This document shows, one piece after another, positions 32,369-63,250 of a stretch of DNA of 64,000 nucleotides. Every line of letters starts with the position of its first letter. The first letter of the stretch is position 1. This stretch comes from a virus, in the IMG/VR virus record IMGVR_UViG_3300047089_000152, positions 1 to 64,000 of that record; one strand, written 5' to 3'. The translations under genes and the position numbers were made by a program. A model generated the notes under the pieces. The model saw only the letters and a list, made by a program, of their open reading frames with translations. It did not search any database and was not told where the DNA came from.

Positions 32369-33396
32369 ATATCCCCTCGACCGCCGAACTTCTACTCCGC
32401 GCCGACTGGGCGCGTCCCCGGTCTCGGCAGACAGCGCTGGGCATGTCCGACCTCGGTGGGTGTCGTCGCCGTGCCGGATATCAGCTGGCCGGTTACCAGC
32501 CGGAGAAACCAAGCGGATCAATTCAAGCTGTCATTGGCACGGCAGTGCATGATGCCGTGGATGCCGCGCTGAAAAAGATGCGCGAAGACGGGATCATTCC
32601 CGCCGACTCGGTCATCAACGAGGCCGTCTCGTTTGGTGGCGTCGTAGGGCACCCGGACCTTTATGTGGACGGGGTACTCAGGGATGTTAAAACTCTCGGG
32701 TATGGGGCGCAGCTGGCGAACGCGAAGCTGTACGGTCCGAAGCGGCAGCATCTGTGGCAAGTCATGACGTACGCCGCAGCCTGTATCCTCGCGGACCGGC
32801 CGGTGCGCACTGTCCAGATTGATTACCTTGTCAGGGATTCCGGTGAAAGCTGGATATGGGAAGGGCCGTTCGATTTCGGGCAGGTCCGCGAGGCGATGCA
32901 GTGGCTGGAATCGGTGCGGGAAACGCCGCTGGAATTCCTCGCCAGGGATTACGCTCCAGATTCGGCGACATGCAAAGGCTGCCCGTTCTTCAACGCCTGC
33001 TGGGACGGCCACGTGGTCGACCGTGACGAACGATCCGTCCTGCTAGTCACCGATGACGACGCGGTGCAGTGGGCGCTGCGACTGGAAGTAGCCCGGGAAC
33101 GGATCAAGACGGCGAAAGAAGAAGAAGCCCTGTCGAAAGGCGCGCTCGACGGGCTACGCCCTAACGACAAGGGAAAGGCGGAAATAAAATTGACTGGCTA
33201 CCCGAAGACTCTGCGCTGGACAGTCACTACGCGGAAGAATCTGGACACCGAAGTAATAAAGCAAGATTATGCGAGGGGCGGCATTATGCCGCCCCTCGCA
33301 TCGAGCGAAAGCGTCCGGTTGGAGTTGCTCGCGCCGCGGGATGAGGATTTATCCTGCCTATCCAATCCCGGCCGCTCCATGCCAAGCCATGCCTAG
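32365..33396 (+). CDS. Cas4/RecB-like PD-(D/E)XK exonuclease
   Basis: GTG 32365 (GTGA overlap, CGGAG upstream) is preferred to an upstream in-frame ATG that would overlap two genes. The 343-aa protein has IGTAVHDAVD, GHPDLYVDG...RDVKTL (active-site Asp...Asp-x-Lys, about 95-110), LWQVMTYAAA (family QxxxY-like motif) and a C-terminal CKGCPFFNAC that with an upstream Cys fits a Cas4-type iron-sulfur site. It likely resects DNA ends for the RecT-like protein. Its last fourteen residues are encoded by a pentamer-repeat element, so the C-terminus has been replaced. Confidence 0.75.
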   Translation: MNIPSTAELLLRADWARPRSRQTALGMSDLGGCRRRAGYQLAGYQPEKPSGSIQAVIGTAVHDAVDAALKKMREDGIIPADSVINEAVSFGGVVGHPDLYVDGVLRDVKTLGYGAQLANAKLYGPKRQHLWQVMTYAAACILADRPVRTVQIDYLVRDSGESWIWEGPFDFGQVREAMQWLESVRETPLEFLARDYAPDSATCKGCPFFNACWDGHVVDRDERSVLLVTDDDAVQWALRLEVARERIKTAKEEEALSKGALDGLRPNDKGKAEIKLTGYPKTLRWTVTTRKNLDTEVIKQDYARGGIMPPLASSESVRLELLAPRDEDLSCLSNPGRSMPSHA

Positions 33397-33408
33397 CCGC
33401 GCCTATCC
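33357..33408 (-). repeat. Pentamer repeat, minus orientation
   Basis: CC occurs at 33357, 33362, 33367 and every five bases to 33407, i.e. GG plus three variable bases on the minus strand, eleven perfect steps. It covers the last codons of the exonuclease and the bases after its stop. Confidence 0.75.
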
Positions 33409-33422
33409 CTTGCTACGTTCAT

Positions 33423-33431
33423 GGTATCATA
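33423..33431 (+). promoter_or_regulatory. Extended -10 TGGTATCAT
   Basis: -10 TATCAT at 33425-33430, followed by ATAGGAC. About 30 bases upstream of the next start. Confidence 0.55.
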
Positions 33432-41878: not shown

Positions 41879-42706
41879 ATGGCCACCTACAAGACGCTGC
41901 GCAGTGACGACCCGAAAGTCCAGCAAGCCCGGCAACGCGCCGGGAAAATCGTCGGGGCGATGAACGACCTCGCCGCCCTCGTCCAACAGTCGTGGGACGC
42001 GAAAGACTGGCGCGTCCTCGGCTATGACTCCTGGCAGAGTTACACGGTCGGGGAGTTCGGCCACGGCGACACCGCCATCAAAGCCCGGCAGGTCATCGTG
42101 TCCATGCTCCGAGGAACCGGACTGTCCCAACGCGCCATCGCCGCGGAGACCGGCGCGTCCGTCGCGACCGTCAACAACGACATTGCCGACCTGTCAACCG
42201 CACCCCCGGAGGGTGACCCTACGACGATCGACCGGCGACCCCGGCCGACTGTTCAGGAACCTGAACAGTCACTCAGAGTAACCGGGCTGGACGGTAGGAC
42301 ACAACCCGCCAGCAGAGGAGGCATGACAGGAGACCAGCGCAGAGAACGGGACCGGCTACTGCGGGCGCAAAGACGGCAAAGAGAAGCGGCCCTCCGCGAA
42401 ACCCACGCCGCCGACGCCGCCCGGCCGGTACCTGACATGATCCACGGTCACCCCGTGACCGTCACCTGCCCGATGTGCGTAGAACTGGCACGCCCAGCCC
42501 GCGAAGCACCCGTTGAACCACTAGCTGGACATTCCGTCGAAACCCGGCTTCGGCTGCTGTTCGCCGGGTTCCTCGACGGTCTCACCCCCGACCAGCTCAC
42601 CGCCCTGCACGACCACTGGGACGAGATCATGAACGAAACCGTCACAGACCGGATCACTAGCTGGGCCGCCGTCGGCCGTACCGTCGCGCAGGAAAGGGCA
42701 AGCTGA
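41879..42706 (+). CDS. DNA-binding helix-turn-helix protein, 275 aa
   Basis: ATG 41879, at the transcription start. GTGLSQRAIAAETGASVATV then NNDIADL (about 80-105) is a helix-turn-helix. The preceding WRVLGYDSWQSYTVGEFG is typical of ParB-like/winged-helix regulators in actinophages. A later CPMC pair and helical C-terminus. Perhaps the regulator that reads the 48-bp repeats. Confidence 0.65.
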   Translation: MATYKTLRSDDPKVQQARQRAGKIVGAMNDLAALVQQSWDAKDWRVLGYDSWQSYTVGEFGHGDTAIKARQVIVSMLRGTGLSQRAIAAETGASVATVNNDIADLSTAPPEGDPTTIDRRPRPTVQEPEQSLRVTGLDGRTQPASRGGMTGDQRRERDRLLRAQRRQREAALRETHAADAARPVPDMIHGHPVTVTCPMCVELARPAREAPVEPLAGHSVETRLRLLFAGFLDGLTPDQLTALHDHWDEIMNETVTDRITSWAAVGRTVAQERAS

Positions 42707-43125
42707 TGAACGGTCAGACTGTCCCCCGGCCCCGGCCGTGCGCGTCGTGTCCGTACCGTAGAGACGTGCCGTCCGGTGTGTGGGCCGCGGAAGAATATGA
42801 CAAGCTACCCCGCTACGACGGGGACACGGGTGAGCAGGCGATGGCCGGGGCGTTCGGCGTGTTCATGTGTCACCAGGCTGACGGGCACCTGTGTTCAGGT
42901 TGGGTAGCCGCCCACGACATGCAGCACAACCTGGCGATACGCATGGCCCGCGACGTGGACATGCCAGCGGTCCTGTCGTACACCACGGACGTGTCGGTGT
43001 TTGGTTCCGGTGCGGAAGCCGCGGCGCACGGCAAGGCCGACATCGAGACCCCGGGGCCGGAAGCTATGCGGACCGTGGAGAAGATCACCGTGGTACGCGG
43101 TAGGCGCGGGAAAGGGAAAGGATGA
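42706..43125 (+). CDS. DUF6283-like Cys protein, 139 aa
   Basis: ATG 42706 (TGATG). CASCPYRRDVPSGVWAAEEY, KLPRYDGDTGEQ, FMCHQADGHLCSGW fits the actinophage/actinobacterial family known as DUF6283, with four conserved cysteines that may bind a metal or an iron-sulfur cluster. Function unknown. Family number is from memory. Confidence 0.6.
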   Translation: MNGQTVPRPRPCASCPYRRDVPSGVWAAEEYDKLPRYDGDTGEQAMAGAFGVFMCHQADGHLCSGWVAAHDMQHNLAIRMARDVDMPAVLSYTTDVSVFGSGAEAAAHGKADIETPGPEAMRTVEKITVVRGRRGKGKG

Positions 43126-43283: not shown

Positions 43284-43296
43284 CCTGGACGGTTGT

Positions 43297-43304
43297 GGTA
43301 CGCT
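43297..43304 (+). promoter_or_regulatory. Extended -10 TGGTACGCT
   Basis: -10 TACGCT at 43299-43304, followed by GTGGGTACAGC. It reads straight into the pentamer array without a gene, so the first transcript made would be the array itself. Confidence 0.5.
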
Positions 43305-43324
43305 GTGGGTACAGCAAACGGACC

Positions 43325-43450
43325 GGAAGGGAAAGGCTGGGCGCGGCAGGCATCGCAGCGGCCGGGATAGCAGCGGATCGGAGCGGCAGGACAGGATTGG
43401 CAGGGCACGGCTGGGCTAGGTGTGGCTGGGCTGGGAACGGAATGGATTGG
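43325..43450 (+). repeat. Pentamer array, about 125 bp
   Basis: GG recurs every five bases, in places every four then six, across 43325-43450 with C almost absent from the GG positions. Same type as the main array at 44791. Confidence 0.7.
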
Positions 43451-43476
43451 ACACTAGCCGCACCGCATGCTACAGT
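43447..43476 (+). promoter_or_regulatory. Promoter TTGGAC-18-TACAGT
   Basis: -35-like TTGGAC 43447-43452, 18 bases, extended -10 TGCTACAGT ending 43476, then AGAGGTATAG. Drives the gene at 43521. Confidence 0.6.
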
Positions 43477-43520: not shown

Positions 43521-44186
43521 ATGCCACCACGCAAGACCACCACAGGCGGACCAGTCCAGCTCACCAGGCTGGCAGAAGAAGTCGCCCAAATCCACATCGC
43601 CGGGGCTACGCCACTTATTATTCATAAATGGTCGGAAAAGGCGCTCAACCAGATGCGGATCGCCCAGTCCGGGGCAATTAAGCCGCCCCGCGAACCCAAG
43701 AACGCCGAAGAAAACGCCCACGCGGCAACATACTGGGTCGACGTCGCCGAGACGATCCCCGGCATCCCCAGCGTCTCATTCAAGGCCGCCATGGTCGGAG
43801 CCTGCCGGTTCTTCGACGGCCTCCCCATGACGACAGCAAAATTGCTGTTCTTCGTCGACGGGGTCGTCAGCGAAGCCAAGGGCGACGCGCCAGCACGCGA
43901 CCTGCTCGTCCCGATTATCTCCGGCCCTGGGGAAATGCGGGAAGACACCCCGCGCAACGACAACGGAAACCCGGACCTCCGGTACAGGAATCAGTTCTTC
44001 CCGTGGAAAGCCGTACTCAACGTGCGGTTCATGCCCGCGAAGATCGCCCCCGAATCCGTCATCGCGCTAGCTGACGCCGCCGGTCGTGGCGGTGTCGGAG
44101 AATGGCGTCCATCCGCACCGAAAAGCGCGACTGGCACATACGGCCAGTTTCGTGTCATCACCCGGAAGGAATGGGAGTCGGCCTAA
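43521..44186 (+). CDS. Conserved phage protein, 221 aa
   Basis: ATG 43521; AAAGGAACAACGCACC upstream. Signature segments: IHIAGATPLIIHKWSEKALN, VSFKAAMVGACRFFDG, LLVPIISGPGEMREDTPRN, RYRNQFFPWKAVLNVRFMPA and GVGEWRPSAP...GTYGQFRV. I recognise this as a widespread siphophage family near recombination genes, function unknown; the last motif recalls ferredoxin-like RAMP folds, which is speculative. Confidence 0.65.
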   Translation: MPPRKTTTGGPVQLTRLAEEVAQIHIAGATPLIIHKWSEKALNQMRIAQSGAIKPPREPKNAEENAHAATYWVDVAETIPGIPSVSFKAAMVGACRFFDGLPMTTAKLLFFVDGVVSEAKGDAPARDLLVPIISGPGEMREDTPRNDNGNPDLRYRNQFFPWKAVLNVRFMPAKIAPESVIALADAAGRGGVGEWRPSAPKSATGTYGQFRVITRKEWESA

Positions 44187-44187
44187 A

Positions 44188-44745
44188 ATGGCGACCATCA
44201 CCGTCGAACAGCAGTGGGCGTTCAAATCGGGTGCGCGTGTCCCGGGTGGCGTCCACGCCGAGGATGTGGTGCGTGAGAAGGAACAGATGGAAGACCACCT
44301 GGGCCGCCTCGCCACCACGGAGGAAGCCGCGGAAATGGTCCTCCGCTGGCCTACCAAGTACAAGGCGCACCGGGCGTTCGCACCGGCAACCGAGAAAGAA
44401 GCACTCCACGAAGCAGTGGTACGCGGTGTTCGGAGCGCCTGGAGTTCCGTGATTCAGGTCGACGTCGAAATCACCGAGGTCACCAACCGGATTTCCGGTG
44501 ATATCGAGATCGCAACCAGGCGTGTCGACGCACCCGAAGTGAGATGGTTTCACGCCGTGCCAGCACGCGTCGGCGACACGCAACGAGTTTATGACTCGTT
44601 GCCGAATATCGCAGCCGATGCTGACAAGGAAGCGGCGCTGTCCGAAGATCTCGCCACGCAAGCACGCAACTTCTCCGCAAAAGTAGCCAGCGTCACTGGC
44701 GAGCTGGCGCGGTTGCACAAGTTGCGCAGCACCGCCGGAAATTAG
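44188..44745 (+). CDS. Hypothetical protein, 185 aa
   Basis: ATG 44188 after the previous TAA. Helical start, then ALHEAVVRGVRSAWSSVIQV and beta strands (VDVEITEVTNRISGDIEIAT); long C-terminal helix. Probably partner of the preceding protein. Confidence 0.6.
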   Translation: MATITVEQQWAFKSGARVPGGVHAEDVVREKEQMEDHLGRLATTEEAAEMVLRWPTKYKAHRAFAPATEKEALHEAVVRGVRSAWSSVIQVDVEITEVTNRISGDIEIATRRVDAPEVRWFHAVPARVGDTQRVYDSLPNIAADADKEAALSEDLATQARNFSAKVASVTGELARLHKLRSTAGN

Positions 44746-44748
44746 ACC

Positions 44749-44786
44749 ACCAGGTTCCGGCCGGGGAAACTCGGCCGGAACCTGGT
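44749..44786 (+). terminator. 15-bp hairpin
   Basis: ACCAGGTTCCGGCCG (44749-44763) pairs with 44772-44786, loop GGGAAACT. No T-tract; it closes the operon right before the main array. Confidence 0.6.
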
Positions 44787-44790
44787 CGGT

Positions 44791-46075
44791 AAGGGGAGTG
44801 GAGGGGCAGGGACTGTCGTGGCAAGGAACGGCAGGGCACGGAGTGGATTGGCAGGATAGGCTCGGCGCGGCCAGGCGGGGAGCGTTTCGGAGTGGCATGG
44901 ATTGGCTGGGACTGGCAGTATCGGATCGCAGTGGTCAGGGTAGGCAAGGCCCGGCCAGGCGGGGCTCGGTATGGCCTGCACTGGCGGGGAACGCAATGGA
45001 GTGGCAGGACCGGTGTGGAATGGCTGGGACGGGAACGGCGCGGTAGGGAATGGAGTGGCAGGAACGGTGGGGCCGGGCGCGGCGCGGCTAGGCTCGGCGC
45101 GGACGGGCATGGATTGGCTGGGCAGGACAGGATCGGAGAGCAGGGGGCTGGCGCGGCATGGCACGGAGAGGCAGGAGAGGAACGGTCGGGACAGGAGCGG
45201 CAAGGAGCGCACCGGCAGGCAGCGGCAGGGAATGGCATGGAACGGACTGGATTGGCAGGACAGGACCGGCATGGCCAGGAGGGGCATGTCCTGGAATGGA
45301 ATGGCAGGAATGGCTGGGTACGGCGGGGCCGGGCGAGCATTGGACAGGACCGGCAGTCGCGGAAGGGCTCGGCAGGGACCGGATTGCAGCGGCGAGGATG
45401 GGCTAGGCAGGAGCGGAACGGCAGGGCATGGCCTGGATCGGAGCGGCTGGGCAGGATAGGCATGGATCGGCCTGGGTAGGCAAGGAGGGGCTGGGACGGG
45501 ACCGGATTGGCAGGGCAGCAGTGGAGAGGCAAGCCGTGCAATGGCGGGGCGGGGCGTGGCATGGACTGGACCGGCAGGACTGGACTGGACTGGATTGGAG
45601 AGCAGGGCAGTGGCAGGGATCGTAGGGGTTCGGACGGGCAGGTTAGGCTTGGACGGGCTAGGCGTGGCATGGGCCGGCAAGGAACGGCTCGGAGCGGCAG
45701 GGATTGGCACGGCTCGGAGTGGCAGGACCGGACGGGTACGACGTGGCGTGGCTGGCATTGGCAAGGACTGGCAGGAGTGGATTGGCAGGGCCGGGCTTGG
45801 CATGGCGTGGCTGGGAATGGCGTGGCAGGACAGGTGGGGCTTGGCGGGCCGGGGATCGGCACGGATGGGCATGGCATGGCCCGGTAGGGCATGGCAGCAT
45901 TGGACTGGACCGGACCGGCAAGGCTTGGCTTGGCTGGGATCGGATGGGAACGGCAGGAGCGGAGCGGACTGTCGTGGCATGGCATGGCCTGGCGTGGCGC
46001 GGATCGGACGGGCAGGATAGGTCGGGCGTGGAATGGAACGGACGGGCTGGGCATGGAACGGCAGGATAGGAGTGA
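44791..46075 (+). repeat. Main pentamer array: GG plus three bases, about 1.3 kb
   Basis: For about 1285 bases GG recurs with a period of five, the three bases between being varied but enriched for CAG, CAT, ATT, ACA, ATC, AAC, CTC. Examples: GGCAGGATAGGCTCGG; GGCATGGCATGGCCTGG. Short slips of one base occur. Long frames on either strand (up to 475 codons on the minus strand) arise because five and three are coprime and CCNNN rarely contains stops; they look like artefacts (Pro/Ser/Arg low complexity). The strand is G-rich and C-poor. No gene supported inside. Confidence 0.85.
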
Positions 46076-46130: not shown

Positions 46131-46283
46131 ATGATCTTGTGCTCGTGCGGCCATCCTGCGGTCGAGCATGACCTGAACCGTTCGGAGACTAAGCGAACAG
46201 TTTGCCTGACCACCGAACGGACTACGAAATGTCCGTGCGTGCTATATTCACCAGACCTTCGTGATACACTAGAGGTACAATGA
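46131..46283 (+). CDS. CxCGH-type mini protein, 50 aa
   Basis: ATG 46131. LCSCGHPAVEHDLNRSETKR, then KCPCVLYS: CxCGH...H...CxC like the protein at 3682. Its stop overlaps the ATG of the ParB-like gene, and the next promoter lies within its end. Confidence 0.55.
   Translation: MILCSCGHPAVEHDLNRSETKRTVCLTTERTTKCPCVLYSPDLRDTLEVQ
46262..46270 (+). promoter_or_regulatory. Extended -10 TGATACACT before a near-leaderless gene
   Basis: TACACT 46265-46270, AGAGGTAC follows, ATG at 46280. Confidence 0.65.
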
Positions 46284-47149
46284 ACGAGACCATAGAACGA
46301 GAAGACCGCAGGGCCGTCACCGCGCTCACCTCCGGGGAAAACGCCACGAAGGTCACCGTCAAAACAAGCGACGGCAACTACGAAGAACGACAGCTAACCG
46401 TCCACGGGCTCGCACGGCTGATTCCCGTGATCGCACTGGGCGACATGGACCGGCTGATAGACGACGTGCGCGAACACGGCGTCCTCGAACCCCTGATCAT
46501 GTTCCAGGGACAAGTCCTTGACGGACGCAACCGGCTCGCCGTAGCTTCGGTCGTCGGCGTACCCGTGCAGCTCACCGAATTCGACGGAGACGAAGCCGCA
46601 GCCAGAAACTTCGTCTGGTCCGCGAACGCTGCGAGGCGGCACCTGTCCGTCCCCCAGATCGCGCTGGCCGCTGAACGGTTCGGTTTCGTCGACGCCGCCA
46701 AAGCCGAAGCAGGCCCCGACGACCCCAACCTGGATATCCGCTCGACGGTCGCACCATGGGCGCGAATCGCCGCGCGAAAGGTCGGTGCGATCACCCCGGC
46801 TACACTGGAACGGTTCCAGCAAGCCAGGATCCCCGAGGCACCCGACACGATGCGCCGGGTCGATTCCGGTGAGATCCGCCGGGTCGACGTCGCGGTCAAG
46901 GAAGCGGTCGCGGAGCGGACCGTGCTCACCGGCCGTCTCATCCAGGTTCCACCCCCGGTTGCGCGTACCGCGTGGGACCGGCTGGGCTGCGCGCGGGGTG
47001 ACGTTCTCGCCGCGGAACGCGCCATCCTGGCAGGGGACTGGGGTGGGATGGAAAGGGACCAGTTCGCTGTCCGCGCCCGTGAAATCCAGGGAGCCCTGAT
47101 CAGGATTCAGAATTTGTATCGTTATGGATCGGGCGGCAGGACCGGTTAG
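46280..47149 (+). CDS. ParB/Srx-domain protein, 289 aa
   Basis: ATG 46280. LTVHGLARLIPVIALGDMDR, LIDDVREHGVLEPLIMFQGQ and VLDGRNRLAVASVVGVPV (about 40-105) form the ParB N-terminal nuclease-like fold with its DGxxR motif. VWSANAARRHLSVPQIALAA fits the following HTH-like helix. The end, GSGGRTG, is encoded by the start of a pentamer array, as in the exonuclease gene. Likely DNA-binding regulator. Confidence 0.75.
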   Translation: MNETIEREDRRAVTALTSGENATKVTVKTSDGNYEERQLTVHGLARLIPVIALGDMDRLIDDVREHGVLEPLIMFQGQVLDGRNRLAVASVVGVPVQLTEFDGDEAAARNFVWSANAARRHLSVPQIALAAERFGFVDAAKAEAGPDDPNLDIRSTVAPWARIAARKVGAITPATLERFQQARIPEAPDTMRRVDSGEIRRVDVAVKEAVAERTVLTGRLIQVPPPVARTAWDRLGCARGDVLAAERAILAGDWGGMERDQFAVRAREIQGALIRIQNLYRYGSGGRTG

Positions 47150-47204
47150 GACGGGCTAGGAATGGCTGGGCTGGGCATGGACTGGAATGGCAGGAATGGA
47201 ATGG
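47126..47204 (+). repeat. Pentamer array, about 80 bp
   Basis: GG every five bases from about 47126 to 47204 with slips near 47135 and 47193. It supplies the last codons of the ParB-like gene and the start codon region of the next gene. Confidence 0.75.
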
Positions 47205-47473
47205 CTAAGCCGGATTTCGCCCACGGCGTGCAAGGCTACAACTGGCACAAGTGCCGGTGCGAACAGTGCCGGGCGGCTAACTCCGCCCGGTCCCGTACCT
47301 CCCGCGCTGCCCGCAAAGCACGCACCGCGGCGGGTGACCCCGCCGTCCCGCACGGGACCAGGGGCGGGTACACCAACTGGGCGTGCCGGTGCCTGCCATG
47401 CTCCCAGGCCAACAGCGAGGCGTGCCTGGAATACCGGAACGCCCACAGTAACCGTCAGGACATCGTGACCTGA
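47201..47473 (+). CDS. Cys-rich small protein, 90 aa
   Basis: ATG 47201 lies within the final pentamers, whose AGGAATGGA may act as ribosome site. FAHGVQGYNWHKCRCEQCRA and a second YTNWACRCLPCSQAN are two similar CxCxxC modules, an HG..GY...C.C..C family common in actinophages. Probably zinc-binding. Confidence 0.6.
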   Translation: MAKPDFAHGVQGYNWHKCRCEQCRAANSARSRTSRAARKARTAAGDPAVPHGTRGGYTNWACRCLPCSQANSEACLEYRNAHSNRQDIVT

Positions 47474-50296: not shown

Positions 50297-50456
50297 CGGT
50301 GAGGTTTTCCTTTCGGGAAAGGTACCTCGCTGAAACGTAGACCAGCGCTCCCCTCGCTGTCACCGTTTCGTGATGAGTCTTCCTGATTCACCCGATAGTC
50401 CACGATTCACGCAGGTCAGCCGTCTGGGTGAATCGCCGCGGTTCGGTTACAAGACG
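50297..50456 (-). promoter_or_regulatory. Leader region of the hydrolase operon
   Basis: On the minus strand a CCTTTC/GAAAGG hairpin overlaps the ribosome site just before ATG 50296, which could hide it. Repeated GATTCAC/GTGAATC segments occur at 50383-50435. A clear promoter is not identified. Confidence 0.35.
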
Positions 50457-50494
50457 AGAAAATACCCCGCAGCGCAACGCTGCGGGGTATTTTC
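50457..50494. terminator. Bidirectional intrinsic terminator
   Basis: AATACCCCGCAGCG (50461-50474) pairs with 50478-50491 over CAA; T-run on the plus side and A-run (T on the minus strand) before it. Confidence 0.8.
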
Positions 50495-50526
50495 AGGGAG
50501 CCCAGGGGCAGCCCTTTTTTCGAGTA

Positions 50527-62708: not shown

Positions 62709-62736
62709 GGAAGCATCATCCTGTCCTAAGTGTGGT

Positions 62737-62747
62737 AGGATAGTAAT
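62737..62747 (-). promoter_or_regulatory. Possible minus-strand -10 TACTAT
   Basis: Minus strand TACTAT about 30 bases upstream of GTG 62708; no -35 matched. It would give the glycosyltransferase its own start. Confidence 0.3.
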
Positions 62748-62753
62748 TGCATT

Positions 62754-62815
62754 GGAGGGGCATGGCATGGCACGGCCCGGAGTGCTGGGGTGGGGAACGG
62801 AATGGATGGGCAGGA
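62754..62815 (+). repeat. Pentamer array, about 60 bp
   Basis: GG every five bases from 62754 to about 62810 with one gap near 62785. Unlike the other arrays it lies in the minus-strand structural operon. Confidence 0.7.
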
Positions 62816-62817
62816 TA

Positions 62818-62864
62818 GATCCAGGTTGGTGCGCATCTTTTACAGGTGCGCACCAACCTGGATC
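62818..62864. terminator. Perfect 18-bp hairpin
   Basis: GATCCAGGTTGGTGCGCA (62818-62835) pairs with 62847-62864. It contains the end and stop codon of the minus gene at 62840 and separates it from the pentamer array. Confidence 0.75.
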
Positions 62865-63250
62865 AGAAATGAGCATCCCATGTATTGCTGGCCGGCGTAT
62901 TCGGTGAGTCCGTAGGTCATCACCTGCAATACGACCGTGAACTCCACCGCCCCGCCCAGGGTCGGGTCAGCCTGCACCGCCGCGTTGATGCTTTTAGTAC
63001 CGGACGTGGACACGTAGTCGTCGATTACGTCCTGGCCGGAAGCGTCGTTCGCGGCGGATACCAGCACGACGGCGAGGAGATTGACCTGGGTTTCGCCGTC
63101 CATCGTGATGCCGTAATTGACCGCTGGCCGGTTCGGGATTATGACCGCGCATGGCGGTATGACCTGCCCGGGTGCGATCGCGTGTACGTTCAGCCCGGTG
63201 GTGGATAGCCGGGTTGCGAGCGCGACCCTGATCGCTTTGACGTTAGCCAT
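62840..63250 (-). CDS. Tail terminator/connector-type protein, 136 aa
   Basis: ATG at 63250 overlaps the stop region of the 26-aa gene. VKAIRVALATRLSTTGLNVH, PPCAVIIPNRPAVNYGITMD and TEYAGQQYMGCSFLIQVG have the beta-alpha pattern of head-tail joining proteins that precede the major tail gene. Homology not certain. Confidence 0.6.
   Translation of the reverse strand: MANVKAIRVALATRLSTTGLNVHAIAPGQVIPPCAVIIPNRPAVNYGITMDGETQVNLLAVVLVSAANDASGQDVIDDYVSTSGTKSINAAVQADPTLGGAVEFTVVLQVMTYGLTEYAGQQYMGCSFLIQVGAHL

Follow-up and report, generated by a model that had tools for sequence, protein, structure and literature searches.

Organization of the locus

The window, meaning the whole 64,000-nt stretch of DNA analyzed, belongs to a 104-kb IMG/VR virus record carrying terminase and portal genes. 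Dispersed over this record are arrays in which GG recurs every 5 bp, labeled here as putative genes for vrRNAs, the guides of the VIPR (Viral Interference Programmable Repeat) system described below. The features of interest are:

33354-33408, - strand: putative solitary vrRNA, the sole array with GG on the - strand
33421-33429, - strand: extended -10 word TGATACCAT, 21 bp before array 33354-33408
43296-43304, + strand: extended -10 word TGGTACGCT, 24 bp before array 43320
43320-43453, + strand: putative vrRNA array of one or two blocks, shortly upstream of vipr
43521-44186, + strand: vipr, predicted RAMP (Cas7-like) protein of 221 aa, phrog_4652, assigned by linkage, profile and model
44188-44745, + strand: candidate Vipr-accessory protein (vap) of 185 aa, remote profile match
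44795-46073, + strand: putative main vrRNA array, GGMNN blocks separated by GGCA
46280-47149, + strand: ParB-like gene directly 3' of the main array, its 3' end being the self-match of vrRNA 47139
47095-47127, - strand: site matched imperfectly by vrRNA 47139 (self-match), within the LIRIQNLYRYG codons, with the skip base at the wobble position
47139-47207, + strand: putative solitary vrRNA, NN letters matching 47095-47127 at 20/22 by the 1-nt skip rule
62733-62741, + strand: extended -10 word TGGTAGGAT, 21 bp before array 62754
62754-62813, + strand: putative solitary vrRNA adjoining the tail-terminator gene and resembling its codons 28-39
62840-63250, - strand: tail terminator gene, phrog_17840, with bases 63135-63170 as imperfect self-match of vrRNA 62754
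79506-79589, 86576-86645 and 90454-90508, outside the window in the same record: further arrays from the chain search

The lag-5 GG signal is beyond chance level, as exact 5-bp GG runs extend up to 18 units in the window and do not exceed five in 20 dinucleotide-model shuffles. A chain search (threshold 6) retrieved eight arrays from the whole virus record and none from five shuffles, and all four small relatives of the main array noticed in a previous sequence-only reading of the window were recovered (33354-33408, 43320-43453, 47139-47207 and 62754-62813). In the main array, comprising about 196 pentamers in about 1.3 kb, the third pentamer base is C in 89, A in 87, T in 12 and G in 8 of 196 units, i.e., A or C in 176, whereas the last two bases (NN) are almost evenly distributed. 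The unit is GGMNN with only two of the three variable bases free, so that the initial description of three free positions holds for the last two and has to be corrected for the third. Where GG is broken within arrays, the second G is almost always affected. That the GG spacing is the conserved feature and the array neither a gene nor a simple tandem repeat, as had also been proposed, agrees with the retained GG, the near-random NN and the intergenic position; most of the eight arrays are entirely intergenic. A coding function is ruled out by this position together with the 5-bp period. Identical repeats alternating with spacers, as in CRISPR, were not detected by TRF, the structure being pentameric instead.

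The phase is broken by the tetramer GGCA followed by GGA, with GGCAGGA spaced at 44, 49, 54, 59 or 64 bp (5n+4) or multiples thereof, and this punctuation divides the main array into end-to-end blocks of about 9-12 pentamers each. Solitary arrays comprise about 10-16 units; arrays of 5 to 8 units are absent from the 104-kb record, the minimum being about 10. GG is found on the + strand in seven of the eight arrays irrespective of flanking-gene direction. Strand polarity with replication was rejected as a rule, since one orientation per contig is usual, yet several records hold both. A common end GGATTGGCAGGA/GGCAG is observed, and hairpins lie downstream of some arrays. At 44755-44785, a strong hairpin (CCAGGTTCCGGCC...GGCCGGAACCTGG) directly precedes the main array, and the promoter word is absent there. 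The punctuation words between blocks vary by phage (L034, L118, L120, L150), including GGACTTTAG, GGGCTTTTT plus AT-rich DNA, GGCTAATG and GGCTACCTCAG, and are possibly processing sites or tails.

A RAMP protein gene is linked to the arrays

A scan of IMG/VR contigs for 12 consecutive GGNNN units gave at least 120 matching contig stretches, and among the matches listed more than 100 are genuine degenerate arrays, mostly of the GGCNN or GGYNN type. The suggested search for (GGNNN)n in other phages was thus productive and also revealed cultured carriers, namely the cluster F1 mycobacteriophages Saal, Quico, Brocalys, Donkeykong and others, the Gordonia phages UmaThurman and Ecliptus, and LittleE. 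Intergenic position applies to 180 of 197 arrays in the sampled contigs, among which the main array of the window is the largest. In a bacterial genome collection, most matches are poly-G or coding repeats, with few real arrays among the sampled contigs. Arrays in LittleE (L313; 1292-1486 and 2783-2946) and L057 are located between or beside tRNA-like sequences.

For finding a partner protein from sequence alone, all predicted proteins near arrays were clustered. One family adjoins arrays in 72 sampled array-bearing phage contigs at a median distance of 19 nt, the distance between array and gene being at most 200 nt in 61 of 71 cases. About 45 sampled array contigs lack this gene in the piece examined; most of them are fragments, and a gene-calling error accounts for at least one of the misses (L312). 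The family member of the window, 43521-44186, sits between array 43320 and the main array, lacks a Pfam match and falls into phrog_4652 of unknown function. As a single sequence, it matches the SUSP1 Vipr protein (PDB 36pp) weakly (E = 0.56), while a profile of 55 family members hits the same entry at E = 1.8e-40. The AlphaFold2 model of the window protein (pLDDT 92.9, pTM 0.88) found Csm, Cmr and type VII Cas7-type RAMPs as best PDB matches in Foldseek. Profile homology and modeled fold identify 43521-44186 as vipr, predicted to encode a single-domain RAMP protein.

A repeating protein reading each GG, as had been considered for the window, is consequently the best explanation, with RAMP/Vipr subunits as likely readers whose gene adjoins the arrays, whereas zinc knuckles, the example then given, are not supported in view of the dedicated RAMP gene. 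With the linked gene found, the ideas of a TRAP-like ring, stoperators, G4/R-loops and telomere-like, switch-region-like or DGR elements were dropped. Leader RNAs of TRAP (trp RNA-binding attenuation protein) carry about 11 triplets with 2-nt spacers between them, the same RNA spacing geometry as in the arrays; however, the TRAP protein is unrelated to Vipr and its spacers carry no information. The stoperators of mycobacteriophage L5 are likewise numerous short intergenic sites with preferred orientation, but represent 13-bp DNA sites for a repressor and not RNA guides as proposed here.

A second protein family adjoins vipr or arrays in 18 contigs. Its profile, searched against four proteins, gives the product of 44188-44745 a score of 17.2 bits (E = 7.5e-7), making this a candidate vap and presumably a remote, diverged member of the family. 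In Saal, Quico, Brocalys and Donkeykong, an array, vipr and a second-family gene lie between the antirepressor and excisionase genes, where Che8 (L323) and Fruitloop (L325), also of cluster F1, only possess small genes. Being present in some F1 phages and absent from these two, the cassette is accessory; its genes are annotated merely as hypothetical proteins (L307, L308, L309, L312). In several loci (L118, L132, L237 and 46280-47149 of the window), ParB-like genes follow vipr or arrays, perhaps as another accessory type.

Comparison with VIPR and class 1 CRISPR

VIPR is a phage-encoded RNA-guided system known from one preprint (PMC13142463; bioRxiv 2026.04.26.720920, April/June 2026), besides which no further paper on it was found in the literature. 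There, Vipr is described as an early-branching, compact RAMP with RRM core, G-loop and thumb, and vrRNAs bound to it were sequenced. They consist of 9-16 YNNGG repeats with conserved GGY, variable NN and an invariable structured 3' tail. Pairing with dsDNA occurs through the NN letters, one base being skipped between dinucleotides, usually at the wobble position, and target binding results in transcriptional repression. Guides are reported to be directed against competing phages, satellites and prophages; accessory genes (vap1-6) are found beside vipr, the system is mainly phage-encoded, and it is proposed as ancestor of class 1 CRISPR (PMC13142463).

The arrays are almost certainly of this already known kind, i.e., vrRNA genes of VIPR, a phage-against-phage weapon related to CRISPR, and the statement that no such phage element had been described is out of date since the preprint's first posting in April 2026. 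Shared with the type II reference of SUSP1 (36pp) are the phage RAMP gene adjoining intergenic GG-N-NN pentamer arrays, about 9-16 pentamers per guide, a small candidate accessory gene beside vipr and guides consistent with a one-base-skip, wobble-aligned code. In contrast to the GGY consensus, the phage studied here uses GGM (A or C), for which the preprint leaves room by allowing "a related consensus"; "staggered arrays with overlapping vrRNAs" are mentioned there as well. Moreover, the phage fuses about 20 guides into a 1.3-kb array with GGCA punctuation, distributes seven further arrays across 57 kb, the majority of them preceded by a promoter word, and possesses several guides resembling the adjacent gene. 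In the main text of PMC13142463, neither the GGM consensus nor an array of about 1.3 kb was seen, though the supplement may hold both; solitary vrRNAs that adjoin structural genes and have promoters of their own were not seen in that main text either.

Class 1 CRISPR-Cas systems with their Cas7/Csm3 backbone share the RAMP fold, the expected coating of the guide RNA by repeating subunits and periodic gaps in base pairing, but employ direct repeats plus spacers and a 6-nt period, whereas here both elements are missing, the period is 5 nt and a single RAMP gene is present.

Guides statistically agree with a one-base-skip code

The code was analyzed with 354 non-identical guide blocks by comparing the best NN match within 2 kb (arrays masked) with permuted NN order. 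Skipping one base gave z of at least 4 in nine blocks and of at least 5 in four, whereas skips of 0, 2 and 3 bases reached the lower threshold in only 1, 0 and 2 blocks, respectively, and the higher one in none. Of 14 matches inside called genes, 13 place the skipped base at the wobble position. When decoded codons were scored with BLOSUM at the protein level, z of at least 4 was obtained for 21 of the 354 blocks from 18 contigs and of at least 5 for 14, while decoy guides read backwards yielded none at either threshold. As these counts include near-identical relatives, they are not fully independent. In the natural sequences compared, the wobble-aligned one-base-skip code holds statistically for the 354 blocks taken together and not guide by guide.

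These results also bear on slippage-born, microsatellite-like repeats or G-quadruplex tracts devoid of guide function. The arrays are indeed GG-rich, and neighboring pentamers are somewhat more similar than remote ones (0.36 versus about 0.30). On the other hand, GG is kept with NN almost free, solitary arrays have at least about 10 units, GGCA punctuation is regular and vipr is linked, and this linkage together with the code test refutes such an origin, leaving it a negligible probability. Neither a G-rich structure as function nor a slippage process, both proposed for the window before, is supported given intact GG next to nearly random NN, the minimum of about 10 units and the adjoining RAMP gene.

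Matches of vrRNAs fall in or near the adjoining gene, tens to hundreds of bases away from the vrRNA. In the 104-kb record, vrRNA 47139 agrees with the ParB-like gene near its 3' terminus in 20 of 22 letters, where LIRIQNLYRYG represents residues 273-283 of 289. For vrRNA 79506, the match covers residues 218-228 of a relative of a phage SF3 radical SAM protein, and for 86576 the beginning of a small ORF in the capsid region; the match of 62754 to tail terminator residues 28-39 is weaker. For main-array guides, the protein-level test gave no neighbor match. Decoding of guides against all sampled sequence, before restriction to neighbors, did not result in an excess of matches. Mismatched NN positions are conservative, with a mean BLOSUM62 score of 0.33 versus -0.56 expected (p about 1e-4, the null ignoring transition bias). 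This suggests a neighbor rule, according to which decoded vrRNAs resemble a diverged homolog of the adjacent gene and guides may be aimed at the alleles of relatives. The rule is absent from the main text of PMC13142463, which does not contain "adjacent", "neighbor" or "self-target"; the supplement may hold it.

Given the conservative own-site mismatches, the most economical interpretation has the guide fitting the neighbor's homolog in a related phage, with the own allele having diverged. The further proposal that guides beside own genes encode foreign alleles of these, with guide and resistant allele being linked like poison and immunity, is given an even chance. Alternatively, solitary vrRNAs could repress their own adjacent gene despite the mismatches, thereby setting expression rather than attacking rivals. 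This autoregulation would fit the match in the own genome, sometimes with merely 2 mismatches in 22 letters, its distance of only tens to hundreds of bases and the own promoter of several vrRNAs. However, an exact match to the own site would then be expected, the NN mismatches are conservative beyond random, as if the guide were fitted to a homologous gene, and the targets reported in PMC13142463 belong to competing phages and satellites; hence, autoregulation is considered rather unlikely.

Perfect foreign targets were searched for directly. Four guides of the window and one F1 guide gave none or only chance-like matches without extension in viral contigs, two more F1 guides gave none there, and a mycobacteriophage guide lacked a perfect target in all 297 genomes tested from the Mycolicibacterium palauense genus group.

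Promoter words before solitary arrays

In the 104-kb record, the extended -10 word TGnTAnnnT is positioned 21-28 bp before the first GG in five of seven solitary arrays, with 52 occurrences in total in 208 kb of strand. TATAAT precedes another solitary array, the sixth (86576). Arrays antisense to neighboring genes also carry the extended -10 word. These findings suggest that solitary arrays are independent small-RNA genes in this phage. Before the arrays of other contigs, the word is not clearly enriched (7 of 136 versus 4.6 expected).

The promoters argue against arrays acting at the DNA level, e.g., as stoperator-like sites or recombination or packaging signals for a DNA-binding protein. 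Short intergenic location, a GG orientation that is uniform within the genome for nearly all contigs and an array orientation sometimes disagreeing with transcription would be compatible with such sites. Nevertheless, the linked protein is by homology an RNA-binding RAMP related to Vipr, the NN letters hold gapped coding information and Vipr-bound vrRNAs were sequenced in PMC13142463, so that DNA sites are very improbable.

Proposed mechanism and implications

With the array anatomy, the homology and modeled fold of Vipr and the conformity of guides to the skip code demonstrated in sequence, the arrays are almost certainly vrRNA genes of a VIPR system whose guides are read by Vipr with a one-base skip. 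Each GGMNN block of about 9-12 pentamers would represent one guide. By analogy with the preprint, Vipr would coat the vrRNA with one subunit per pentamer holding GG(M), the NN dinucleotides being presented to the target DNA with one base skipped in between (NNxNNx), and binding to dsDNA would silence the target gene. The solitary vrRNAs 47139, 62754, 79506 and 86576 may target related, competing phages through their homologs of the adjacent gene, while the own allele would escape a perfect match by differing from the guide at some NN positions.

VIPR biology has so far rested on a single preprint. Here, the one-base-skip code gains support from natural sequences of many unrelated phages, and the known range of the system now includes a GGM consensus, an array of 20 guides and actinophage carriers (cluster F1 mycobacteriophages and Gordonia phages). 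The suggested neighbor rule would tell where targets lie, namely in homologs of the adjacent gene, and makes target prediction and guide origin testable in cultured phages. If guides indeed encode foreign alleles, relatives bearing another allele would be silenced, and recombinants gaining the guide would also gain the protected allele.

Besides the arrays, comparison of the window with Rfam gave nothing above threshold, with only a subthreshold Thr_leader match (50385-50496, + strand; 34 bits, cutoff 55) which is probably a terminator-like hairpin. A DUF6283 protein (Pfam E = 2.3e-31) is encoded at 42706-43125, shortly upstream of the VIPR locus, and the contig starts with a degenerate GTGG/GTGGGT tandem repeat at positions 2-102.
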